A stretch of 64,000 bases of DNA, from contig NZ_VNIP01000006.1 of NCBI RefSeq assembly GCF_008370325.1, positions 744,001 to 808,000 on the forward strand. The letters run 5' to 3'. Origin of the DNA: Martinezella tropici (GTDB lineage Bacteria; Pseudomonadota; Alphaproteobacteria; Rhizobiales; Rhizobiaceae). The position numbers were made by a program, and so were the translations under genes. The notes below the pieces were generated by a model. That model did no database searches and was not told the DNA's origin. It saw only the letters and a program-made list of their open reading frames with translations. This document shows positions 10,142 to 23,334 of the stretch, in pieces (position 1 is the stretch's first letter; each line of letters begins with the position of its first letter).

Positions 10142-10885
10142 CTATTGCTGGATCGCGTAGGTGATGCTCACCGAAGCGTTGTACTCGTTCTCACCGGTTG
10201 CGACCGGAACAGCCTTATCCATCGGCGCTGCTGCGGCCATGCTGCGCATGTAGGGCTGCGGCGGAGCAGCGACCCCACCCTCATGGATCGCGATGACGCG
10301 GCCAAGCTTGACGCCGGCGGCATCCGTCAGGGTCTTCGCCTTGGCGGCGGCATCGGCGACGGCCTTCTTACGGGCTTCTTCAAGAACCGTATCCGGCTTG
10401 TCGTTGGTGAATTGAATATCGCCGCCCTGGTTGATGCCGAGCTTGACTGCCTGGTCAAGCAGGCCGCCGAGCTTCGAGAGGTCACGCACACGAACGGTCA
10501 GGCCGTTCGTCACCTGATAGCCGGTCAGGACCGGCGGCTGGCCACGGCCGTCCTTGTCGTTCGGATAGGTATATTGCGGCTGGATCGAAAAGCCCGAGGT
10601 CTGCAGATCGCGTTCGGCAATACCGCTCTCCTTCAGCGTCGTCAGTACGGCGCCCATGGCCTTGCTGTTTTGGTCGAGCGCATCCTGAGCTGCCTTCGCC
10701 TGCTGGACGACCGACAGCGTTACAACGGCCATATCCGGCGCAATGGCCGCATGTCCTTCACCAGTGACGGTGATGACGGCTTCCCGCGGCTTGGCGTCTT
10801 CGGCAAAGGCTGCAGCCGCAGGCACGAAGAAAGCGGCGCTCACAAGAGCGGCAAGAGCAAAATCTCTGGTTTTCGTCAGAAGCAT
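10142..10885 (-). CDS. SIMPL domain-containing periplasmic protein (DUF541)
   Basis: 247 aa. A signal peptide (residues 1-28, cut near AFAED) is followed by a SIMPL/DUF541 domain with VITVTGEGHAAIAPDMAVV, the ARKKAVADAAAKAKTLTDAAG helix and a terminal VSITYAI strand. The homologues BP26 of Brucella and YggE of E. coli form periplasmic rings and are linked to stress tolerance; BP26 is a known Brucella antigen. AAGGA lies before the start. The gene is divergent from the tRNA gene and ends inside the repeat element. Confidence 0.88.
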   Translation of the reverse strand: MLLTKTRDFALAALVSAAFFVPAAAAFAEDAKPREAVITVTGEGHAAIAPDMAVVTLSVVQQAKAAQDALDQNSKAMGAVLTTLKESGIAERDLQTSGFSIQPQYTYPNDKDGRGQPPVLTGYQVTNGLTVRVRDLSKLGGLLDQAVKLGINQGGDIQFTNDKPDTVLEEARKKAVADAAAKAKTLTDAAGVKLGRVIAIHEGGVAAPPQPYMRSMAAAAPMDKAVPVATGENEYNASVSITYAIQQ

Positions 10886-11046: not shown

Positions 11047-11122
11047 GGGCCTGTAGCTCAATGGTTAGAGCCGGCGGCTCATAACCGCTTGGTTGGGGGT
11101 TCGAGTCCCTCCGGGCCCACCA
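11047..11122 (+). tRNA. tRNA-Ile2 with anticodon CAU (lysidine type)
   Basis: A full cloverleaf can be drawn. The acceptor GGGCCTG pairs with CGGGCCC, the D arm is TAGCTCAATGGTTAGAGC, the anticodon stem is GGCGGCTCATAACCGC with CAT in the loop, and the T arm is GGGGGTTCGAGTCCCTC; an encoded ACCA ends the molecule. The anticodon arm and the variable region closely match bacterial tRNA-Ile2, whose C34 is changed to lysidine to read AUA, more than elongator tRNA-Met. Automatic tools may label it Met. An accessory region begins right behind it. Confidence 0.92.
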
Positions 11123-13457: not shown

Positions 13458-13847
13458 TTACATCAGTTGTTCGAGAATTCGCTCTTGCTCAAGCTTGCGG
13501 GGCTCATCATGATCGATTTGCCGGCATTGCTCCAGCTCATTGGCAAAAAGCTCTGCGGCGTGGCGGCCGGCATGCGTCCTGTCATCTTCGATGACCGCAG
13601 CGATCCGTCGAAATAGCTCCATTTCGAAGCTGCTGGCAGCGTTCGAAAGGCTCGGTCTCGCCAATCTCGCGCCACCATCGAGGCGGATAGCCGAGACGTA
13701 AAATTCGTCTTCATAATCATCTCCGGCAGAGGTCAATTCAGCGCGGCCATAGAGCAACAGCCCGGTTTCCCAGCGATCGCAGAGGCGAATGCTGAGCTCG
13801 TCGAATGAATATTCGCAGGAGAAGGCGGGGCTGGCTTGCATGATCAT
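13458..13847 (-). CDS. Hypothetical protein, possibly under repressor control
   Basis: 129 aa, not recognised. It is acidic, with a DDYEDEFYVSAIRLDGG strand-like stretch and a C-terminal helical part rich in E/Q/R. Its start ATG overlaps the stop of the small frame at 13844-14032 in an ATGA arrangement, which suggests translational coupling. A 17-bp palindrome identical in arms to the one in front of the S24 repressor lies upstream at 14113. A link with that regulator is inferred from this alone. Confidence 0.55.
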   Translation of the reverse strand: MIMQASPAFSCEYSFDELSIRLCDRWETGLLLYGRAELTSAGDDYEDEFYVSAIRLDGGARLARPSLSNAASSFEMELFRRIAAVIEDDRTHAGRHAAELFANELEQCRQIDHDEPRKLEQERILEQLM

Positions 13848-14032
13848 ACCTCCATTTGCGCAATCGATGCAGGGAAGGCGTTTGCTTCCTGAAAATCAGC
13901 GGCTTTCGAAGTCCCGGCTGACCCCGGCGAGATATGAAGCGGTGCTCCGAGCATTACGGCAATCTCCTTTCGATATTTCTTCGGATCGAATATCGATACC
14001 GTGGCCTGTCCGGTTTCGCTGACTTCGCGCAA
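13844..14032 (-). CDS. Putative small protein, coupled to the downstream unknown gene
   Basis: 62 aa if begun at the TTG at 14032; no ATG or GTG start is available at that end. The content (FDPKKYRKEIAVMLGAPLHI) is protein-like, and the stop overlaps the next start (ATGA). The upstream 80-130 bases hold the repressor-type palindrome. It has no known relatives that I recognise. The call rests on coupling and position, so confidence is low. Confidence 0.35.
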   Translation of the reverse strand: MREVSETGQATVSIFDPKKYRKEIAVMLGAPLHISPGSAGTSKAADFQEANAFPASIAQMEV

Positions 14033-14097: not shown

Positions 14098-14129
14098 AAA
14101 CATAATACGTGTCAACATTATTTATGTTG
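14098..14129. promoter_or_regulatory. Operator-like palindrome pair behind the S24 repressor gene
   Basis: CAACAT-N5-ATGTTG at 14113-14129 is a perfect 17-bp palindrome. A weaker copy (AAACAT-N5-GTGTCA) lies 15 bases to the left at 14098. The same perfect element stands in front of the repressor at 14990. It sits upstream of the minus-strand unknown genes that end at 13458, so these could be a second repressor target. Confidence 0.55.
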
Positions 14130-14178
14130 TTTCAATTAAGGACGACACCAAAAGTGTTTCTAAGTCTATGCGGATTAG

Positions 14179-14967
14179 CTACTTGCGGGCAATGTGTCCG
14201 CAAATGCGGCCGATGACTGTCAGTCGCTCGAGCTCGACGGTGAACGTCTCAAGGGCAGGATTGTCCGAAATGATCTTCACTTGGCTGGGGTGGGTGAAGG
14301 GCACGCGCTGAAGGCGCTTGATCTGCGGTTCGGAATAGCCGTCGCTGATGGCGTAGACGGTATCCGTCGTCATTTGGTTCTGGGAGAGGTCGACGATGAC
14401 GCGATCACCCGGCATGTAGGTCGGCTGCATGGAATCGCCGACGACTTCCATGATGATGGTATGGTTCGGCGAGGCCTTTGCCTCGTTCCTCAAATAGCCT
14501 GTGGGAATAAGCCATTCCGCGACGATTTTATGCCCCGCGACGTTACCGGAGCCGACAGGAAGGTTGATGACTTCGCCAATAATGCCGCTTCCGGCTCCCA
14601 ATTTGACATCGACTTCCGGCATCGCGCCTGCGATCTGCGGCGTCCAATGCTCGCGGCTATAGCTGTGCTCTTCGCCATCTTCGGCAAATCCGTCCTGATC
14701 CTGCACGTCGGGATCGAATGAGGTGACGATGGTCGGCGCCACACGCGCCACCGTGCGCGGCCCTTCTCCTGTCAGGAGATAGCCGGCAGATGTCCCGAAT
14801 TTCTTGGCGTAGCGATTGGCGATTTCTGCATTGAACTCGTTCTGCCCGTTCTCGTGCGCGCGATAGGTGGACAGGCTCACGCCGAGCGCTTCCGCTGCCT
14901 TCGTGGCTGATGGATAATTTGCGGCTTCGCGGGCCGCCTTCAGTCGTTCGCCCATGGATTTTTGCAT
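14179..14967 (-). CDS. XRE family repressor with S24 (LexA-like) peptidase domain
   Basis: 262 aa. The N-terminal helix-turn-helix (residues 5-58) reads MGERLKAAREAANYPSATKA followed by EALGVSLSTYRAHENGQNEF. The C-terminal half is an S24 domain with the Ser nucleophile at about 179 (VVGDSMQPTYMPGDRVIVD) and the partner Lys at about 217 (QIKRLQR). An Ala-Gly pair at 113-114 could be a self-cleavage site. This is the design of phage CI/C2-type repressors that respond to DNA damage. Palindromes lie on both sides of the gene. No integrase or structural phage genes are seen, so it may be a remnant or a domesticated switch. Confidence 0.85.
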   Translation of the reverse strand: MQKSMGERLKAAREAANYPSATKAAEALGVSLSTYRAHENGQNEFNAEIANRYAKKFGTSAGYLLTGEGPRTVARVAPTIVTSFDPDVQDQDGFAEDGEEHSYSREHWTPQIAGAMPEVDVKLGAGSGIIGEVINLPVGSGNVAGHKIVAEWLIPTGYLRNEAKASPNHTIIMEVVGDSMQPTYMPGDRVIVDLSQNQMTTDTVYAISDGYSEPQIKRLQRVPFTHPSQVKIISDNPALETFTVELERLTVIGRICGHIARK

Positions 14968-14989
14968 TTTTCGACCCTTGCAAAATTTA

Positions 14990-15039
14990 CAACATAAATC
15001 ATGTTGACATCATCTTTATTATCAACATAATTGGTGTTT
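14990..15039. promoter_or_regulatory. Operator region between the S24 repressor and the rightward small-gene cassette
   Basis: A perfect CAACAT-N5-ATGTTG palindrome lies at 14990-15006 and a degenerate one (CAACAT-N5-GTGTTT) at 15023-15039, in an AT-rich gap between divergent genes. The perfect copy has the same arms and spacer length as the one at 14113. Autoregulation of the repressor and control of the genes from 15115 rightward is the simplest reading. Confidence 0.6.
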
Positions 15040-15114
15040 ATCAAGGGGCCTGCGGCGTAAGCTGCTGCGGACCGATCCGCGGATTTTAGGCCGGATGTAT
15101 TGAAAGGTGACGGT

Positions 15115-15321
15115 ATGACCACAGGCAGAAGGGGTAGAAGGGCATCGTCCCGCGCGGGATATTTCGACTGCTTCTTGGGCTGCCCCGGTTGCCGGCGCAT
15201 CCTGTCGATTGCGGAAGTTATCGAACTGCATTGCGAGAACTGCGATCTCGCGATCGTGCCATTGGAAATAGCCCTTGGCGAGCCAGTCAATGAAGCGCCG
15301 GATCTGGGAAGATTGTCATGA
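15115..15321 (+). CDS. Small protein with a possible zinc ribbon
   Basis: 68 aa. Two CxxC pairs (GCPGCRR and HCENC, about 20 residues apart) suggest a zinc ribbon. The N-terminus is basic. GAAAGGTGA lies before the ATG. The stop overlaps the next start (ATGA). It is the first gene rightward of the operator region, so it may be the first under repressor control. No function is known. Confidence 0.55.
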   Translation: MTTGRRGRRASSRAGYFDCFLGCPGCRRILSIAEVIELHCENCDLAIVPLEIALGEPVNEAPDLGRLS

Positions 15322-15536
15322 GCGAATTGCTTCAGGGCTTCCTGGCTTGCGTGGGCGCAGCATTTTTCTTCGGCACCATGCTGGTAGCGGTAAAATCAAT
15401 CATCAGCAGATCGTCATGCTCATATGGCGAGAATGAAGATTGTGGTGCGCCGGAAGGGGATCAGATCCACTTTCGGGTCGCTGAAGACGAAAATACTCGT
15501 GCCGAGAAATCGGCACGTCTCGTCGAAATGGGCTGA
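15318..15536 (+). CDS. Small putative membrane protein
   Basis: 72 aa. One hydrophobic segment (residues 6-29, FLACVGAAFFFGTMLVAVKSII) is followed by a short acidic tail. It begins four bases inside the preceding gene (ATGA), which suggests translational coupling. Not recognised as a family. The overlap and the segment support it being real, but its small size leaves doubt. Confidence 0.4.
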   Translation: MSELLQGFLACVGAAFFFGTMLVAVKSIISRSSCSYGENEDCGAPEGDQIHFRVAEDENTRAEKSARLVEMG

Positions 15537-15614: not shown

Positions 15615-15887
15615 ATGAACGAATTTCAAATCGGAACTGAAGCCGTTGCCGACGGTCATCACGGTTGGATCCGCAAGGTGCATCGAGCGACAAACGAGAT
15701 AGTCCGCGATAGTCGCGGCGAGCCGATCGTTTTTGCGACGCAGGATGCAGCGAAGGCTGCCGCCGGCGAGGCGATGGTCGCCTATCTCAATACGCCGATG
15801 CTGCGAGATGGGGCGAGGGTCGAGGCAATTTTCAAGGCGGAAGCCTTCTTCAAACCGAAGCCTGCCACTGCCGCGGGCGTTGCCTGA
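15615..15887 (+). CDS. Small hypothetical protein
   Basis: 90 aa with a very strong GGAGGAGG ribosome site. It contains HHGWIRKVHRATNEIVRDSRGEPIVF followed by an Ala-rich helix and a C-terminal FKPKP tail. No family recognised. It lies in the co-directional cassette behind the S24 repressor. Confidence 0.55.
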   Translation: MNEFQIGTEAVADGHHGWIRKVHRATNEIVRDSRGEPIVFATQDAAKAAAGEAMVAYLNTPMLRDGARVEAIFKAEAFFKPKPATAAGVA

Positions 15888-15944
15888 TCCGTTTGCTGGA
15901 ATGGGAAAAGCATCAAATTCAGTGAGGAAAGGAGTTAAGCTGTC

Positions 15945-16361
15945 ATGACCAAAGGCAGGCTGGATCTTCTTCTCGATGGGCTCGGCATCAAGCTGGTTCC
16001 GGTCCATCGGCGACGCGCCCCCGCGGAAAGTCACGCGCGCGGGACGATGCAGGAAATCCGGGGTCGCTATGGCGATGGCCATCTGGTTTTCGTCTTGCGG
16101 TGCATCCGGCAGACCGGGAGCAATCGGGACGAACTCTGGTCGGACACGATCGGTGCGGTGTCCGATGTCCTTGCGCAGCGCCAGGATTGGGCGCTGCAGC
16201 GTCCGGGCGATCTACTAGGCGCCTTCGACGATATCGCACTTGCTTCCTTGCGCACGGATGCGGTCGCACGACGGCCTTGGCCTATTCGCGCGACGTTGCG
16301 CACGCTGATCTATCAGGAATTGGAGAAACGACTTGATGCACCGATTTGCCTTGCAGTTTGA
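15945..16361 (+). CDS. Hypothetical protein of the repressor-linked cassette
   Basis: 138 aa. GGAAAGGAG lies before the ATG at the proper distance. Features are an N-terminal GRLDLLLDGLGIKLVPVHRRR and a later GHLVFVLRCIRQTGSNRDEL stretch. It is basic and has no membrane segment. It overlaps the following gene by about 26 bases, which supports co-translation. No family was recognised, and a nucleic-acid-related role cannot be shown. Confidence 0.55.
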   Translation: MTKGRLDLLLDGLGIKLVPVHRRRAPAESHARGTMQEIRGRYGDGHLVFVLRCIRQTGSNRDELWSDTIGAVSDVLAQRQDWALQRPGDLLGAFDDIALASLRTDAVARRPWPIRATLRTLIYQELEKRLDAPICLAV

Positions 16362-17001
16362 TGACCTGTCCAGTTACGCGGCCGAGATCGCTGATTTGAG
16401 CCTGATCGTCCGTGCCCGCTTCGTCGAGGCTGCCGACACGATGGTCCATCTCGATGTGCGAGGCGTTCGCCCTGACCGGATGCGGACGCTTTGGCCGGAG
16501 GTTTTGCCAGAGCCGACGGACCATGCCGATATCCGCATCCGCTATCGTCCGAGTGCCGCGGCGATCAGCCGGGCGGAGGAGGTCTTGCAGGAATGGCTGC
16601 GCATTCACGTACAGGACGAGGAGCGGCGCATCCTGCTTTCGCGCTGGTCTATTTGCCTTGCTGCGCCGCATATTGCCGGATCCTTCCGGGATTTCTGCGC
16701 GCGGACGGGGCGGGTGCGCCGCACGGCCGAGCGGCGCATTCAGAGCGAATTCCAGAATCTTGCCAGCGCGCTTCTCGCCGGCTCACCGATATTGCAGGAG
16801 CCGGATTGGTCGCGCATATCCCCGATGATGCCGAATGCGCCTGGTCGGCTCGATCGGGTAAGACCGCAAGCACCCAAGCATGAAAACCACTGGCTGCCGG
16901 ATGATGCGCGGCCTGTCTTCGATGCGGCAAGCCCGGAACTTGCCGAACTGGCCAAACGACTGGAGCGCGGAAACCGCAGGCGCGCCAAGATGAACGCCTG
17001 A
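16336..17001 (+). CDS. Hypothetical protein (possible DUF6362-type, phage-related)
   Basis: 221 aa from the ATG at 16336. A central helical part (SFRDFCARTGRVRRTAERRIQSEFQNLA) looks like a helix-turn-helix, and the C-terminal third is rich in Pro, Arg and Lys. It may belong to the DUF6362 group found near phage and repressor genes, but this is from memory of gene context and is not certain. It is the last gene of the cassette; the next gene is convergent. Confidence 0.5.
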   Translation: MHRFALQFDDLSSYAAEIADLSLIVRARFVEAADTMVHLDVRGVRPDRMRTLWPEVLPEPTDHADIRIRYRPSAAAISRAEEVLQEWLRIHVQDEERRILLSRWSICLAAPHIAGSFRDFCARTGRVRRTAERRIQSEFQNLASALLAGSPILQEPDWSRISPMMPNAPGRLDRVRPQAPKHENHWLPDDARPVFDAASPELAELAKRLERGNRRRAKMNA

Positions 17002-17075
17002 TTTGCAGCGACGATTGCGGTCCGAACCCGCATAATCGTTGCGATGCATCAATATCTCTGCTCGGTGACTTGTGG

Positions 17076-17714
17076 TCACTCGAATGCAAAGACGCCGGCC
17101 GGGCACGTCCTTGTGGTGTCCTCGCCGAAATCCTGGACTGCATATTCCGCCAAAAGCCGAAGTCGCGATTTCGGCAGATGCGCGCGCCAGGGATCACCGA
17201 TCAAGATGTCAATTCCCTGTGCCAGGCAGTGATCCAGAAACGCTATGACTTTCTCGGCAAGAGCCGCTTCATAGAAAAGATCTCCGACGCATATGACATC
17301 GACTTCGGGCGGTTCGCCTTGCGTCAAGTCCGCGAGCATCGTGTTGATCGCTACACCATTGAGTGCCGCATTGAGCTCGATCGTCGCTATGGCATAGGGA
17401 TCGATGTCGGCGGCATGGACTGTCGCGGCCCCTGCTTTTGCGGCTGCAATCCCGACGATTCCCGAGCCGGCCCCCAGATCCAGCGCGCGACGGCCGGCCA
17501 CGCTTTCCGGCCTGTCGAGAAGGTAATGCGCCAGAACCAGGCCTCCTCCCCAATAATGCGCCCAATAGGGTGAACCGAATTGCGGATCCCGCTCGGCGAG
17601 GCGTCGCAACCCGCTTTGCGGGCCTGCTTTATGCAGACGAATGTCCGTAATGCGGGGAACGGGCAGGACTGGAAGGTTGGCGACGATAAATTGCCGAATC
17701 CACTCGTTGTTCAT
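17076..17714 (-). CDS. Class I SAM-dependent methyltransferase (ETFB-lysine methyltransferase-like)
   Basis: 212 aa from the ATG at 17714, which begins NNEWIRQFIVANLPVLPVPR as in rhizobial homologues. The frame stays open upstream to 17852, but that extension is basic and untypical. Motif I is ALDLGAGSGIVGIAAAKAGA, and motif II follows as HAADIDPYA. YWAHYWGGGLVLAHYLL before motif I is characteristic of the METTL20/protein-lysine methyltransferase group, so the target is probably a protein. Its stop faces the cassette genes. Confidence 0.8.
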   Translation of the reverse strand: MNNEWIRQFIVANLPVLPVPRITDIRLHKAGPQSGLRRLAERDPQFGSPYWAHYWGGGLVLAHYLLDRPESVAGRRALDLGAGSGIVGIAAAKAGAATVHAADIDPYAIATIELNAALNGVAINTMLADLTQGEPPEVDVICVGDLFYEAALAEKVIAFLDHCLAQGIDILIGDPWRAHLPKSRLRLLAEYAVQDFGEDTTRTCPAGVFAFE

Positions 17715-17967
17715 TGCATCGTCCGAACCGCGATATCGTTGCCGCAGCGAACTCGTGCGCATCAGCTTGAGCTTTTCCTTCGATTGAATTCTATCGTCCA
17801 TGGCAGCGGTTCTTTGAGGTCCAAGCAGGTGGATTGAGGTTATCCGCTTCAATTCGTCGGACTGCAGAGTGCAATATTTTCCTGTGATTTCAATCTATTA
17901 TTTGTAATCTCCGTCAAAACTCGCATTCCTTGCGCGGCAAGCGCTCTTCAAGGGTGTCGCCAATTGA

Positions 17968-18336
17968 GCCGAAAACTGGTTTGATCTCTTACCAAGCCCG
18001 GCGGAGGTCAACCAACTTCTTGATGCATTGGACGGCAAGGTCGGTCTCAACGGGGACTTCGGCAATTGGGAGCGTGCCGGAAAATACGATGATCTCGCGA
18101 GGATCATGGGTCGCGCCGAGCTTTGCCACGCAAAGGGGCGTTATTCCGCAGCTGGCCTTGATGCCGAGGATTATATTCGTTGTGTCAAGCTTTCCACCGC
18201 CGCCGGCTACGAGGGGCCTTTTACGCTAATATATGATTCGGCATACCGTCGGGACGAATGGTCCGGCATCCTTGAAGAGCGGGACTGCATCGCCAATGTT
18301 TTGAAAGATGAGACGGTAGCTCAGAACTTGCTGTAA
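17968..18336 (+). pseudogene. C-terminal remnant of a sugar phosphate isomerase/epimerase (TIM barrel)
   Basis: An open stretch of about 122 codons reads like the last half of a xylose-isomerase-like TIM barrel protein. It includes ENWFDLLPSPAEVNQLL, LDGKVGLNGDFGNW, CHAKGRYSA and GPFTLIYDSAY. A stop codon (TGA at 17965) cuts it off directly upstream, and no N-terminal barrel half, ATG or ribosome site is present. Family members are normally 260-300 aa. It is therefore best read as a decayed gene end left by a deletion. Confidence 0.65.
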
Positions 18337-18417
18337 CTGAAACGGTACCACCGTTCTGTTCGATATAGATCGTCCTATATCGCGATTTTTAGGATGGATG
18401 GGTGCTGGACCTGATCA

Positions 18418-18624
18418 TCAATGAAACTCATGGTCGTACAGAGCGCCCAGAAGCTGGTCCTGGGTTTGATAACCGGCATTGTAGAGATCGATAGCCACGT
18501 TGGCCGCGGACAGGCCCTCCTGACTTTGCAGTCTTATACTGCGCTCCGCGCACCAGGCGAAGAGTGCGCCTGCGAGGACATCAATGTCGTCAGGGTAAAG
18601 CGGCGCGTTGACCATCATAGACAT
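18418..18624 (-). CDS. Small hypothetical protein
   Basis: 68 aa, acidic, with an internal helical pattern (DDIDVLAGALFAWCAERSIRLQ and NVAIDLYNAGYQTQDQLLGALY). No family recognised and no membrane segment. The ATG at 18624 has no clear ribosome site. Composition speaks for a real protein; neighbours give no clue. Confidence 0.45.
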   Translation of the reverse strand: MSMMVNAPLYPDDIDVLAGALFAWCAERSIRLQSQEGLSAANVAIDLYNAGYQTQDQLLGALYDHEFH

Positions 18625-18786
18625 TCGCTACACCATTCATTGTTGGAGCTGAGATCAGTTTGGGGTGAAGCAAACACTGCTTTGGTTTTGGAAATTTGCA
18701 ACCGCCTTCATTGCTCGACGTTAACGTCAGCCTGATATGGAACAGGTAGCGTGTCTCTTAATGTGACAAGGGTTCTTTACGGCACA

Positions 18787-18930
18787 TCATTGCAGAGTCT
18801 GATGCTCAGGCCGGGCTGTTGGATGTGTAAGCCTGTCCTTTATGCCGTGTGGCGCAACAAACAAAAGGACGCCGAGCGTAATTGCCAGCGCCACTAGAAG
18901 GGATAATGCGAGCTTCGGTCTGGAAGGCAT
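18787..18930 (-). CDS. Very small membrane protein, coupled to the upstream gene
   Basis: 47 aa (MPSRPKLALSLLVALAITLG opening), with one membrane segment at about residues 7-26 and a short polar tail. Its ATG shares one base with the stop of the gene before it (TAATG), a classic coupling arrangement. Not recognised. The frame remains open upstream to 19035, but that part overlaps the strong 98-aa gene. Confidence 0.4.
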   Translation of the reverse strand: MPSRPKLALSLLVALAITLGVLLFVAPHGIKDRLTHPTARPEHQTLQ

Positions 18931-19226
18931 TATTGGTGAATTGGATAGGACGCCCTGACTGCGGCCTCGATCAACTCCTCGGCATACGAAAGTGCCGATG
19001 CCGTGTCTTCTCCGTCGAGTTTCAGTTCCTTGCACTTGTGATGCATGGCTCTGCGAATTTGTGCGAGCAATGCAGCGTCAATATCGACTTCTCCTTCGTC
19101 AAAGACGTGCGTCAACGCAGATTGAGCAACAATTTCCAGAACTGCGACCCTACCTTCGATTTCACCGAGGGATGGTATTGCATTCCTCTTCACGTGCTGT
19201 TTGCAGTCGCGATGGGTAGTAAGCAT
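18930..19226 (-). CDS. Small hypothetical protein with a strong ribosome site
   Basis: 98 aa from the ATG at 19226, chosen because AAGGAGGTGA stands six bases before it. The sequence has two helical parts (LGEIEGRVAVLEIVAQSALTHV and LLAQIRRAMHHKCKELKLDG). It has the look of small rhizobial cytosolic proteins of unknown role. It is followed by the overlapping 47-aa membrane protein gene, so both are probably made together. Confidence 0.55.
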   Translation of the reverse strand: MLTTHRDCKQHVKRNAIPSLGEIEGRVAVLEIVAQSALTHVFDEGEVDIDAALLAQIRRAMHHKCKELKLDGEDTASALSYAEELIEAAVRASYPIHQ

Positions 19227-19359
19227 TTCGGTCACCTCCTTCACGAAAGAAGATAACTAACGAAAGGAGAAAAAGTTCGGCGGAATTTGCTAAAAAAGCG
19301 ATTTTTGCAGCGTTCACCAGCGACGTTTATCAACGATGGGAGTGCCTTCATCTATCATC

Positions 19360-20328
19360 TCACTTCATGGGGCACAGACCGGGGTTCGACAATACATCAG
19401 CGCAATGCGGTGAACGGCGAAAATCATCATAATAGAGAGTCCAAACCGTAGTATCGGCGGCGCGATATGGGCCAAATTTAAAGTATTGATTCTTTCCAAG
19501 CCCGTGGTCTGCATGTCCTATGTGGCCGGTAACCGATACGATCCATTTATTGTTAGCGAATATTTCGATATGACCCGAGCCATCCGGGCCGGGTTTGCTG
19601 TAGATGGCGAAGTCGATCCAGCCGGAAGAAGGAGTTGGTAGCTTGTTGCCGCGATTTATTACCTTGATTGCGTTGGTGCAACTGGTGAATTCTCCACCGT
19701 CGCCGTCATTCCAATTATCATCCGTCGCGACCAAGGCACGCATCTGATTGGTGTCCGGCCGGAACCAAACAGGCGTTTCGCCGTCACCACAAATTTCACC
19801 ATCGCCCTTGGATTTGCCGTTCCTGGTCGGTGCGACGTAGTTGGTTTCCACTGTGGCGAAAAGCTTGCCGTTGTTCAGCCGCAGGGCCAGGAAGGGGCTG
19901 AAATCTCCCTCTGCCTTCGGCCCGATTTCCCGTTTCCATTGCGCAATGAGATAACGATGATCGCCGGACGGGATGGGATCGGCAAATTTCACGGCAAAGC
20001 CGTACCAAACTCCCTCATCGTAGGGTACGCGATATTTGGTACGCTCCCAGATCTCCGCTCTTTCGCTGCAATTCGCTTTACCGGGCGGGCAGAATGGTTT
20101 GACACTCAGCTTCAGCGCGCCGGCGCCGGTCCGCTTGACCTCCGATTGAAATTCAATCGCCCCCGCTTTCTGCTCGAAGTTATCGCGATAATAAAGATGA
20201 CCGGACGGCGCGAAATCCGTACCGTCGAAGCCGTCGTGCAGGACCATCTGCGCCGGGTTGTCAGCCAGAGTTGGCGTTGCTGCGCAGGTGCAGGCCAGGA
20301 TGGCGGGCAGTGCGTATTTTGCATTCAT
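19360..20328 (-). CDS. Polysaccharide lyase, heparin lyase I-like
   Basis: 322 aa with a signal peptide (residues 1-22, cut near TLA-DN). The mature part is a jelly-roll lyase/lectin domain of the heparin lyase I type, with GVWYGFAVKFADPIPSGDHRYLIAQW, SPFLALRLNNGKLF and a closing YYDDFRRS. Such enzymes cut uronic-acid-containing polysaccharides by beta-elimination outside the cytoplasm. GAGGAA stands about ten bases before the ATG at 20328. Beside surface-polymer genes it could trim or release the cell's own polysaccharide; glucuronan or heparin-like specificity is not shown. Confidence 0.75.
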   Translation of the reverse strand: MNAKYALPAILACTCAATPTLADNPAQMVLHDGFDGTDFAPSGHLYYRDNFEQKAGAIEFQSEVKRTGAGALKLSVKPFCPPGKANCSERAEIWERTKYRVPYDEGVWYGFAVKFADPIPSGDHRYLIAQWKREIGPKAEGDFSPFLALRLNNGKLFATVETNYVAPTRNGKSKGDGEICGDGETPVWFRPDTNQMRALVATDDNWNDGDGGEFTSCTNAIKVINRGNKLPTPSSGWIDFAIYSKPGPDGSGHIEIFANNKWIVSVTGHIGHADHGLGKNQYFKFGPYRAADTTVWTLYYDDFRRSPHCADVLSNPGLCPMK

Positions 20329-20660
20329 GCAGGAGTATTCCTCTGGCGGGACATTCATACAGCTTTATCAATGACCTGTTCGCTTCTTGCAGGCAAGCGA
20401 GAGCTTGCGCGACCTAAAGGCAGATCGATGGTTCGTGAATCAAATCTGATCAAATCCACGAGAACCACAACCTATTAATGTGTTGATTGATGGTGCTACT
20501 TTAACCGCCTGTTAGACGCTTTGCGGTTCATATCCCCATGGATTGGGCTTGGTTGCGGCTATCAGCGCCCCGGACATGATTGTTCGTCGCCGCAACTTCA
20601 ACGACGTTTTGATGTCGGTCATGAGACAAACCGGCGAAAGGTCGCTGTTGGGGACCGCCT
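20329..20660. other. Divergent promoter gap between the lyase and glycosyltransferase genes
   Basis: About 330 bases without a credible gene. It should hold promoters for both flanking genes. I see no strong inverted repeat or terminator in it. Confidence 0.4.
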
Positions 20661-21812
20661 TTGGCAAATGGGGATACAGAGCTGGCCATAAGCGAGGCCA
20701 AGCAACGACGGAAGATCGTGATTCTAACGTCGCACGCGTTTCTGCGCGGCTACCGCAAGGCGTCGATCCACTTCATCGCGTCCTGCTGGGCCGAACAGGG
20801 AGATAAGGTCGATTTTGTTACTATAGGACATAGCTGGCTGACCCTGTTGAAGGATCGCTCACGCTTTCGCGCGCTGTCCCAAGACCAGGCGAACCGATTT
20901 CAAGTTATCGCTGCTAACTTGAGAGCAGGTGCTTATCTTCCTCCGTTCCATGCCTTCAGCTCCAGCAACCGCTTTCTGAATGTAACAAATGCAGCATTCT
21001 TTCGGCTCTATGGCAGCTATCTCCCGACTTTTGCGCGGCGCGCAATCGCCGATGCAGATCTGGTCGTGATCGAAAGTGGTTCGGCACTCGCATTCTTTAA
21101 CAAGGTTAAAAGGCTGAATTCGAGAGCTCGCACCTTGTATTTTTGCCGCGACCTGCTGCGCAGCATAGGCGCAGCACCAGTGCTGCAAGAGATTCAGGCC
21201 GCTCAGATTGGATGCTTCGACACGGTTTGCGTTCCTTCGGAAAGGTTGGGGGCGATGCTGCCACCGGGGGGGCGTGTGTGTGTCATTCCTCAAGGTGTCG
21301 ACGCCGCACTGTTTGATCGCGAGCAGCCGTCACCATATCAACCCGGCAGCCGCAATGCGATTTCCATCGGCAATATGCTCTTTGATCAGGCTTCCGTCGC
21401 TGCCGTGGCGGCGGCTGCTCCTGATGTGAATTTTCACGTTTTCGGCGCAGCATGGAGCGGCTGGGCTCAACCAAATATCACGATCTACGGCGAGCGGGAC
21501 TTTGAAAGCATCGTTCCTTATCTGCAGCATGCGGATTTTGGCATTGCGCCTTATCGGCTCACAGCCGATGAGGTTTATCTCGCTGAATCAAGCCTGAAGC
21601 TCGCACAGTACAGCTATTGCGGCTTGCCGATCCTGCTGCCTGATCTTGTTCCCTTTAAACGTGCCAACGGCATTCCATATCGTCTTCACGGCGAGGTTGC
21701 CTGGCGAGAGAAGATCGACGCGGCACTGGCGATGCGACGTTCGACGGCTTTCCGCGATGGAATAATGACCTGGGACGAGGTTGCCCGGCAGACTTTGGCC
21801 GCCGTCTTTTAA
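20661..21812 (+). CDS. Glycosyltransferase (GumK-like, GT-B fold)
   Basis: 383 aa if begun at the TTG at 20661; a GTG near 20718 is another possible start, and no clear ribosome site decides it. The order of elements is that of a GT-B enzyme: an N-terminal acceptor domain (VILTSHAFLRGYRKASIHFIA), a middle VCVIPQGVDAALFDREQP hinge and a C-terminal nucleotide-sugar domain with FGIAPYRLTADEVYLAESSLKL. It resembles GumK, the membrane-associated glucuronosyltransferase of xanthan synthesis, so addition of a uronic acid to a lipid-linked sugar is a fair guess. Confidence 0.75.
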   Translation: MANGDTELAISEAKQRRKIVILTSHAFLRGYRKASIHFIASCWAEQGDKVDFVTIGHSWLTLLKDRSRFRALSQDQANRFQVIAANLRAGAYLPPFHAFSSSNRFLNVTNAAFFRLYGSYLPTFARRAIADADLVVIESGSALAFFNKVKRLNSRARTLYFCRDLLRSIGAAPVLQEIQAAQIGCFDTVCVPSERLGAMLPPGGRVCVIPQGVDAALFDREQPSPYQPGSRNAISIGNMLFDQASVAAVAAAAPDVNFHVFGAAWSGWAQPNITIYGERDFESIVPYLQHADFGIAPYRLTADEVYLAESSLKLAQYSYCGLPILLPDLVPFKRANGIPYRLHGEVAWREKIDAALAMRRSTAFRDGIMTWDEVARQTLAAVF

Positions 21813-21825
21813 GCACAGTGATCTA

Positions 21826-23334
21826 TTAGCTCGGAGCGAGGAAATTGAGCAGTCTGTCGGCGAATGGACGTGATGCTCTCGGCAACTTCGCCGCCGCCGT
21901 ATCCATCAAAATCTGCACGTCTTCGGGTGTAACCAAGCGCAAAAAGCGGATTGCTAGCATGTAGGTGATTGCTCCGGCGGGAATGGCGACTACAAGCGCC
22001 GCAAGTCCGTCGAGGCTGTAAACGCCGAGACCTGCGGCGCTCGCGCAAAGAAGAGCTGCGAGCATCGTTTTTGCCAAGGCCGCGATAGGGACAGCAACGC
22101 GGACATATTTCCAAGCCATCAAGCCAAGCAGCGTAAACGTCAATATGACGATCATCGCCCGAGCTAGAGCAGCACCCTCGAGTCCAAGCAGAGGCACAAG
22201 AGCGGTCAGCAACACTATCGTCGATATGCCGCTTGCGATCTGTATGCGCAACAAAACAGCGCTGCGACCGGAAGCGCCGATTATACCCCACGGGATTACG
22301 GACATGCCGGCAAGCGAGACAAAAGCCAGTAGGGTAGCCGCTGCGGGAATGGCAGGCTCGAAGGCGTCGCCGAAGATCAGCGGCAAAAGTTCGGGCATGA
22401 TGGTTGCGCCGCCAAGGCTGATCGGCAGCATGATCAGGGCGACGATACGGATAACACGTTGATACGCCGCATCAAGCGCCTGCTGGTCATTTCGCGCATG
22501 TGCCTCGGTGAAATTGACGATCAATGCCGGCGATATCTGGAGCATGGCCTGTTCAATGAGTCCGGCCAGGCCGAGGCCCGCCGCGAAGTAGCCAATGCTG
22601 GTCGGAGAGAGAAAGATACCGAGAAAAAGGAACTCTATGCGCGAGAGGACGAGGATCTCGATGAGATCGCTAAGCCACATGTACCGGCCATAGCGCAACA
22701 TTTCCGGTGTGAGCGCGTTCCGCGAGTATTTTGAAGCGGGATCAATATAGCCTCGCAATTTCAACGCCTGCGGCAGATATCGGGCGACATAGCCGATCAA
22801 GGCGCCAGTCGGGCCTAGCAGCCAGGCTCCGGCGAAGACAAGCGGAACTTGCATCGTTCCGCCCAGTAAAGTCGTGCGGGCCGTTTGCCCGAAGCGGTTT
22901 CTTCCACGTGCCACGGCGGTCGAGAATACATGGAACGCATAGCTCAGGAACAAGAGCCCGGTGACCAGCCAGAACCAGGCATGCCATGCATCGCGGTGAA
23001 CGTAAGTAATTGCGGTAAAGAGAAGAATAACCGCGGTAATCATGCCGACGGATATGAGAAAGCTGCGCAGCGCCGTACGGACCAATATTTTCCATGCGTC
23101 GCCATTGCCCGAAAGGCTCCCTGCATTGCGCAGCAAGGTTTGGGGCAGGCCCATGTCTGCCAGCGCTGCGGCCGCCGTCGCAACCCATAATGCATAGGCG
23201 ACTTTGCCCGATCCGGCAGGGCCGAGCAGGCGGGCGGCGATGATGCTACTCGCGAAGCCTGCTACCAGCGAAATGGATGTTGCTGCCAGGCTTATCAGTG
23301 AGCTTCTAAGAAGATTGGATGCAGACGTGCTCAT
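21826..23334 (-). CDS. Oligosaccharide flippase family protein (Wzx/MATE-like)
   Basis: 502 aa with about twelve to fourteen membrane segments and the early signature GFASSIIAARLLGPAGSGKVAYALW of polysaccharide flippases. These move lipid-linked oligosaccharide units across the inner membrane. It converges tail to tail with the glycosyltransferase and is divergent from the TupA-like gene. Start is at 23334 or 23340 (two close ATGs, no clear ribosome site). The lyase, glycosyltransferase and flippase suggest one small surface-polymer locus. Confidence 0.85.
   Translation of the reverse strand: MSTSASNLLRSSLISLAATSISLVAGFASSIIAARLLGPAGSGKVAYALWVATAAAALADMGLPQTLLRNAGSLSGNGDAWKILVRTALRSFLISVGMITAVILLFTAITYVHRDAWHAWFWLVTGLLFLSYAFHVFSTAVARGRNRFGQTARTTLLGGTMQVPLVFAGAWLLGPTGALIGYVARYLPQALKLRGYIDPASKYSRNALTPEMLRYGRYMWLSDLIEILVLSRIEFLFLGIFLSPTSIGYFAAGLGLAGLIEQAMLQISPALIVNFTEAHARNDQQALDAAYQRVIRIVALIMLPISLGGATIMPELLPLIFGDAFEPAIPAAATLLAFVSLAGMSVIPWGIIGASGRSAVLLRIQIASGISTIVLLTALVPLLGLEGAALARAMIVILTFTLLGLMAWKYVRVAVPIAALAKTMLAALLCASAAGLGVYSLDGLAALVVAIPAGAITYMLAIRFLRLVTPEDVQILMDTAAAKLPRASRPFADRLLNFLAPS

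Follow-up and report, generated by a model that had tools for sequence, protein, structure and literature searches.

A repressor gene between two sets of palindromes

In the window, by which we mean the whole stretch of 64,000 nucleotides analysed, a gene for a CI-like repressor of the S24 type is flanked on both sides by the palindrome CAACAT-N5-ATGTTG. The earlier note had called the gene an S24 repressor, and this identity was borne out by Pfam (PF00717, E = 1.9e-15, together with an HTH) and by PHROG, in which the best match was phrog_4, a transcriptional repressor family (8e-40). The exact palindromes claimed at 14113-14129 and 14990-15006 were confirmed, as was a degenerate copy near each of them, at 15023-15039 on the right and at 14098-14114 on the left, the latter being weak in this strain. 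Since the repressor gene (CI) runs leftward, from 14967 to 14182, the 14990 site lies at its 5' end; the 14113 site starts 53 bases beyond its last sense codon. The features of this part of the window are as follows.

14098-14114, no strand: OL2, left operator, degenerate, overlapping OL1 by two bases (assigned by eye)
14110-14115, minus strand: TTGACA that may be the -35 of a leftward promoter PL and shares three bases with the end of OL1
14113-14129, no strand: OL1, left operator, exact palindrome CAACATTATTTATGTTG (predicted; sequence match)
14182-14967 (stop codon 14179-14181), minus strand: CI-like S24 repressor, 262 aa, with HTH and Peptidase_S24 domains
14990-15006, no strand: OR1, right operator, exact palindrome CAACATAAATCATGTTG (predicted; sequence match)
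15004-15031, plus strand: rightward promoter PR (predicted by promoter scan), TTGACA-N16-CATAAT, matching the consensus at 11 of 12 positions
15023-15039, no strand: OR2, right operator, degenerate palindrome with 2 mismatches (predicted; pattern search)

When up to 2 mismatches were allowed, 6 matches to the pattern were found in the window, compared with 1.73 (sd 1.25) in shuffled sequences, and 0 of 100 shuffles reached 6; three of the 6 are the sites at 14113-14129, 14990-15006 and, degenerate, 15023-15039. Across the 34 contigs of the genome, which total 6,290,748 bases, 3 places carry the exact pattern, two of which are the sites described here, and a reversed control pattern occurred at 0 places in the same sequence. 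From base composition, 0.10-0.24 exact places per genome were expected; a chance origin of the palindromes was rejected on this comparison and on the shuffles. Many copies scattered at random would, according to the earlier note, have spoken against its reading, and only 3 exact places in 6.29 Mb were found. The third exact palindrome (G000:C34:132333-132349, locus L003) overlaps only an 80-aa frame.

A search of 148 genomes of the genus for the repressor gave matches at E <= 0.001 in 93, most of them weak; full-length matches with at least 85% identity were present in 39 of the 148, including our own genome. Named matches include R. tropici, R. lusitanum, R. freirei, R. hainanense, R. multihospitium, R. 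leucaenae and R. rhizogenes. Sites were counted over 30 loci, i.e. our own and those of 29 relatives. OR1 stands at -39 of the CI start in 30/30 loci, with 0 (7 loci), 1 (17) or 2 (6) mismatches, and OR2 at -72, likewise in all 30, with 2 (19) or 3 (11). The -35 of PR overlaps the end of OR1 and its -10 lies inside OR2. The TTGACA was found at the same place in our genome and 37 of 38 relatives, TTGACG being present in the other one; the -10 reads CATAAT in our genome and 30/38 relatives, and CATATT or CATATC in 8. Over the 100 bases before CI in 39 loci, column agreement was 0.928 in the operator columns versus 0.788 outside them.

On the left, the best downstream site within 250 bases had 0 (3 loci), 1 (18), 2 (5) or 3 (4) mismatches in the 30 loci, and exact copies on both sides at once were rare (2/30, our own locus and L007). 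Left sites tend to be most degenerate in the R. leucaenae/R. mayense branch (loci L030-L033 and L061-L072). OL2 stands 15 bases on from OL1; it has 4 mismatches in this strain, as counted by eye, and is better in many relatives (TGACATATATCATGTTG and similar). The left TTGACA overlaps OL1 in the same geometry as that seen at OR1, and it is conserved in 37/39 orthologous loci (37/40 if L074, a 70% relative in another context, is included). With a pattern of 15 positions comprising the left site and TTGACA, 38/39 orthologous loci scored at least 12 and one scored 11; among 800 stretches taken at random from these loci, 25 also scored at least 12, some of which may overlap real sites. The -10 of PL is weak, so that only the -35 is convincing on the left, and the promoter scan listed no leftward promoter at OL1. 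The distance from OR1 to OL1 ranges from 856 to 952 bp with no constant helical phase, and looping by fixed helical phase was unsupported.

A 19-base block, GAAGTCAGCGAAACCGGAC, lies in the presumed leftward leader (window 14008-14026, minus strand) and is the same or nearly so in most rows of an alignment of 15 rows, 14 of them readable; the surrounding reading frame is not kept. Its first 17 bases occur in the genome once exactly and once with one mismatch, and they belong to no Rfam family. No Rfam match for a structured RNA was obtained up to E = 1 across 13.4-17.9 kb.

Among 17 aligned repressors, Ser179 and Lys217 were invariant (17/17), and Ala125-Gly126, a candidate scissile bond only, was conserved in 16. 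Because of the invariant Ser-Lys dyad, self-cleavage of CI after DNA damage is possible. The median dN/dS of CI was 0.057.

Operators were also compared at 13 more distant repressor loci, one of which (L106) was uninformative upstream, the match starting inside the gene. A plasmid prophage of Pseudochrobactrum sp. XF203 (L035), with a CI of 67% identity, carries the identical operator CAACATGATTTATGTTG at -36 and, at -61, another palindrome, and an IMG/VR contig (L140, CI 70% identical) carries TCAACATGATTTGTGTTGA; no such site was found in these two in the 300 bases past the CI match. Repressors of 54-59% identity (phi2LM21-type) are accompanied by another type of palindrome with TACGC or TACGT halves, which are candidate operators. 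Locus L150 has the same palindrome on both sides and L142 has related ones; in L034 (Sinorhizobium phage phi2LM21) a palindrome is clear only downstream, with upstream half-sites recognised by eye. No two-sided palindrome pair was found at the remaining distant repressor loci.

Neighbouring genes and the particle block of relatives

The earlier note had described two gene sets, one on each side of the repressor, and no other phage genes. The arrangement stood, since the same type of operator is present on both sides and genes lead away on both sides. The statement about phage genes did not: three rightward genes have PHROG matches, 15615 to PHROG 32205, 15945 to 22699 and 16333 to 6836, and relatives have head and tail genes at the same locus. 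The genes and gene remnants concerned are listed below.

13458-13847, minus strand: first conserved gene on the leftward side, 129-aa product of no known family, present in 37/38 close relatives
15106-15321, plus strand: rightward gene 1, 71 aa; contains two CxxC pairs and evolves fast (dN/dS 0.307)
15318-15536, plus strand: rightward gene 2, 72 aa, fast evolving (dN/dS 0.293)
15615-15887, plus strand: rightward gene 3, 90 aa, PHROG 32205 (6.1e-6; dN/dS 0.109)
15945-16361, plus strand: rightward gene 4, 138 aa, PHROG 22699 (8.8e-10; dN/dS 0.063)
16333-17001, plus strand: rightward gene 5, 222 aa, DUF6362 / PHROG 6836 (dN/dS 0.095)
17853-17974, no strand: methyltransferase gene flank, with homology (77% identity) to the flank that precedes terminase in R. 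hainanense
17974-18315, plus strand: remnant of a 285-aa gene, about residues 170-284 left; full-length beyond the block in several relatives

The leftward gene at 13458-13847 (dN/dS 0.118) is preceded by a short frame, and this first frame of the presumed leftward transcript is poorly conserved. Among the rightward genes, no HTH or Cro family match was obtained at E up to 0.1 in the search for a cro opposite the repressor. The 138-aa protein had no Pfam match and rightward gene 5 matched only DUF6362, a family for which no mention was found in the open-licence PMC papers searched. Their predicted structures were all helical for the 138-aa protein (pLDDT 67) and unusable for DUF6362 (mean pLDDT 41). 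Of 297 genomes sampled across the family, 16 had homologues of the 15945 gene. This gene and the DUF6362 gene are paired in some other prophages; in the Pseudochrobactrum prophage, the 15945 and 16333 homologues are adjacent and lie between genes for a DnaB-type helicase and terminase. By their position, both genes of the pair are candidate late-gene regulators.

In close relatives, the order 13458 - CI - 15106 - 15318 - 15615 - 15945 - DUF6362 - methyltransferase is maintained with nearly fixed spacing. CI, the 15945 gene, DUF6362 and the methyltransferase gene were present in 38/38 close relatives and the other genes of the module in 37/38, the exception being L073; this count leaves out L074, the thirty-ninth locus. 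The methyltransferase gene (17076-17852, minus strand; PrmA/lysine-methyltransferase-like) follows DUF6362 in all 38 and is oriented opposite to the phage genes. In 28/39 genomes, CI and the two host genes that flank it (10142-10885 and 19360-20358) are on a single contig; the CI contig carries one flank only in 8/39 and neither in 3/39.

In R. hainanense (G026; L091), the switch is followed by a block of approximately 24 kb. The head part comprises the terminase large subunit, portal, head protease, cement and major capsid proteins and connectors, and the tail part comprises tail tube, tape measure, distal tail, fibre and endolysin. Annotation of the entire block was confined to this genome, and its distribution was followed by individual genes in a clade of 40 genomes, our own included, whose 10142-10885 gene is at least 78% identical to ours. 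At the locus, CI was found in 39/40 and terminase (TerL) in 34/40. The major capsid gene was found in 23/40 clade genomes, in 22 of them on the CI contig, and a tail gene also in 23/40, in three of them on a contig other than that of CI. Genome G111, which is fragmented and without the 10142-10885 flank gene, was not counted; it has the 15945 gene and part of terminase. The capsid is of the PF09950 type, with 8hdt_A as the nearest solved chain; to our knowledge, PF09950 is not the capsid family of RcGTA.

In our own genome, no terminase, capsid or tail gene was detected at the search thresholds used. The scar of the lost block lies at approximately 17974, where homology to the R. hainanense flank ends and the remnant of the 285-aa gene, which we take to be a sugar isomerase gene, starts. 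In six relatives (L036, L048, L051, L052, L057 and L063), the portal gene breaks off at residue 325-354, and the 285-aa gene starts at residue 170. In the window and in L038, L053 and L171, the methyltransferase flank joins the 285-aa gene, at residue 151-156 by tblastn; after subtraction of the flank homology, the junction in the window falls at about residue 170. The shared junction point may be due to one ancestral deletion, to exchange, or to recurrence at a microhomology. By its sequence, then, this strain has lost the particle genes and kept the switch. Terminase stays open in the six relatives with a cut portal, and its dN/dS was 0.063 among nine block-truncated genomes.

Losses of the switch or of genes beside it were also seen. 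In G051, which is within the clade, CI and its neighbours are deleted, residue 168 of DUF6362 being joined to residue 100 of a DUF4440 gene. G012 is without the 13458, 15106 and 15318 genes and has only a fragment of the 15615 gene. These losses indicate that the switch is dispensable at times.

Inheritance and selection

Four outgroup genomes, G090, G144 and G145 over the whole interval between the flanks and G064 over part of it, carry the flanking host genes but no module gene. For seven genes, distances between genomes track those of recA, with Spearman coefficients of 0.43-0.63 and 0/999 permutations as high. In the CI and recA trees, several groups agree and others conflict, including the placement of the nearest relative of our genome. 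Median dN/dS was 0.041 for the capsid (21 loci), 0.061 for terminase and 0.070 for the portal, compared with 0.020 for recA; the portal gene contains stops in two loci and is truncated in several. Pairs synonymously too close or too far were dropped from these calculations (716 of 741 pairs used for CI and 266 of 703 for the 13458 gene), and the set for the module genes included the outlier L074 and not our own genome.

No tyrosine integrase (PF00589) was found in or beside the locus in 6/6 block-bearing genomes or in our own; the nearest PF00589 match was approximately 66 kb from CI, in G141. Attachment repeats were looked for in 12-20.5 kb, where no convincing repeat of the end of tRNA-Met was present (best, 11 bases). 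This tRNA-Met gene (11047-11122) is beside the left flank and is kept in outgroup G090. In G141, an integrase (C1:2469919-2470341) lies near a homologue (2472635) of the host gene adjoining tRNA-Met, and the tRNA-Met region may be an integration spot for islands.

The synteny, the empty sites of the outgroups and the purifying selection suggest one old insertion in an ancestor of the R. tropici group, which would since have been inherited vertically. According to parts of PMC9662315, vertical inheritance and co-diversification with the host is a criterion for gene transfer agents (GTAs) as viriforms; such inheritance was observed here, with some conflict between trees. Particle genes under purifying selection with no integrase would be a further mark of a GTA, and here the signs are mixed: relatives show the low capsid dN/dS and, in the six genomes searched, no PF00589 match close by, but also damaged portal genes, and this strain has none of the particle genes.

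Interpretation and comparison with known systems

Because the sites stand on two sides, overlap a promoter, and recur as the same operator in a prophage whose CI is 67% identical, the locus was read as a lambda-type immunity region. We hold with considerable confidence that it derives from an old temperate phage, of which it is the immunity region (lysis-lysogeny control); the repressor would bind on both sides, and this strain has kept the switch after the loss of the particle genes. The CI-like S24 repressor, presumably as a dimer, would bind OR1 and OR2 and shut PR, and through the OR sites it would probably also tune its own leftward promoter. Past the 3' end of its own gene, it would bind OL1 and OL2 and shut the leftward promoter. 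The last pair of the rightward operon (the 138-aa protein and DUF6362), which precedes terminase in relatives, probably turns on the late genes. Once the repressor is removed, possibly as a result of DNA damage, the rightward operon would make these late regulators and, in relatives, the particle. The phage would have entered the chromosome of the R. tropici group's ancestor and been inherited with it, no integrase being seen now.

Against this reading, most relatives have sites with mismatches, the -10 on the left is poor, and OL2 is degenerate here; the varying OR1-OL1 distance, the poorly conserved first leftward frame, the lack of a downstream site in L035 and L140 within 300 bases and of a recognised Cro-like gene opposite CI also count against it. 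The left palindrome might instead be an auxiliary operator that aids repression on the right, by looping or by raising the local concentration of repressor, with no regulated leftward transcript. This would fit the weak left -10 and the unconserved first leftward frame, and lambda CI is described as joining its two operator sets via a loop; however, TTGACA overlaps OL1 as it does at OR1 and is kept in 37/39 loci, the leftward gene 13458-13847 is kept in 37/38 close relatives, and the spacing and phase between OR1 and OL1 vary. We consider the auxiliary role rather unlikely. Somewhat better are the chances, though still well short of even, that the switch is a relic without present use in this strain and not yet deleted, which is compatible with the immunity-region reading. 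The particle genes are gone here, and the cases of G051 and G012 show what can be lost; against a relic, the genes have no stops, and between G000 and G094, both without the block although a joint loss is unsure, dN/dS was 0.049 for CI and 0.074 for the 15945 gene.

Palindromes of this size would fit many HTH regulators, and the sites could in principle belong to a regulator of the host, such as LexA or a different HTH protein, and not to the adjacent repressor. Two of the three genomic copies flank the repressor, however, and the sites also accompany the 67% relative in the Pseudochrobactrum prophage. The alphaproteobacterial LexA box is GTTC-N7-GTTC; no exact copy of it is present in 13-18 kb, thus none in the element, and matches with at most 1 mismatch numbered 40 in the window versus 45.16 in shuffles, so that a LexA box was rejected. 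A host regulator is the most improbable of the explanations considered. Ordinary prophage remnants that entered many species by independent insertions are also highly improbable. Related TerL, capsid and repressor genes do occur elsewhere in some genomes, and the CI and recA trees conflict in places; yet the flanking host genes are the same, order and spacing are shared by 37-38 of 38 close relatives, distances track recA, no tyrosine integrase is nearby, and the outgroups are without the module. The immunity region of one old, vertically inherited phage thus remains our preferred reading. An extension of it, to which we give only tentative credence, is that the R. tropici group has an undescribed domesticated particle with the PF09950 capsid, either GTA-like or a PBSX-like killer, under a two-sided CI switch, and that the switch outlived the particle here and in a few other strains, where it would run a small retained regulon.

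The two-sided repressor-operator architecture is of a known, textbook kind. In lambda, the CI repressor gene lies between two operator sets, OL and OR, and the operators overlap an early promoter. The present locus resembles it in having an S24-type repressor gene flanked by two operator sets, with operators overlapping the early promoter. It differs in having two right operators rather than three, sets less than 1 kb apart rather than 2.3 kb, and no recognised cro or rex; the operator sequence is presumably unrelated to that of lambda. In Rhizobium phage 16-3, the operators are likewise placed around the repressor gene. According to parts of PMC12429752, the C repressor of 16-3 has operators oL1, oL2, oR1 and oR2, so that this rhizobial phage resembles the present locus in its two left and two right operators. 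The likeness concerns operator layout; unlike the present locus, 16-3 has int and xis genes and is infectious, as described in parts of PMC10460002. Likenesses in sequence are offered by the Pseudochrobactrum prophage, with its 67% identical CI, identical operator and pair of 138-aa and DUF6362 genes, and phi2LM21, with a CI of 59% identity. These two differ from the locus in that replication and other early genes are present, phi2LM21 having in addition an integrase and other palindromes.

Two domesticated systems offer parallels, which are likenesses and not homology. The rhizoviticin locus of Allorhizobium vitis, an F-type tailocin, is described in parts of PMC10811719 as having five early genes needed for late-gene expression and a LexA-family CI-like repressor gene that could not be deleted. 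It is thus an alphaproteobacterial domesticated prophage with a repressor of this kind and early genes driving late expression, as is supposed here; it has no head genes, whereas the R. hainanense locus has terminase, portal, protease and capsid. A tailocin, i.e. a tail without a head, was accordingly rejected for this locus, with head genes in R. hainanense and a capsid gene in 23/40 clade genomes. In Caulobacter, the gene transfer agent is activated by gafYZ, which RogA represses (according to parts of PMC11150451), and the likeness is that of a repressor of a two-gene activator operon switching on a particle cluster. No homology to GafY or GafZ was shown, the 138-aa protein having no Pfam match and its partner matching DUF6362 only, and the capsid here is of the PF09950 type.

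No description of the element was found in titles and abstract openings of the open-licence PMC papers searched, and one may exist in print elsewhere; the main text of PMC3557214, on R. tropici CIAT 899 and PRF 81, contains no word beginning with phage or prophage. What is new is the setting: across a Rhizobium clade, the phage switch occupies a single locus, and 23/40 genomes have capsid and tail genes. An old, apparently integrase-free and vertically inherited phage locus with capsid genes conserved in about half of a clade is unusual. In phiLM21-like prophages, lambda-like and 16-3-like operators are reported absent in parts of PMC12429752. The palindromes around the phi2LM21-type repressors may help with these prophages; phi2LM21 being a different phage, this is no more than a lead. 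The clade includes species such as R. tropici and R. freirei. The production of particles that carry DNA or kill becomes directly testable, and strains with the switch and without the block, such as this one, are natural controls.
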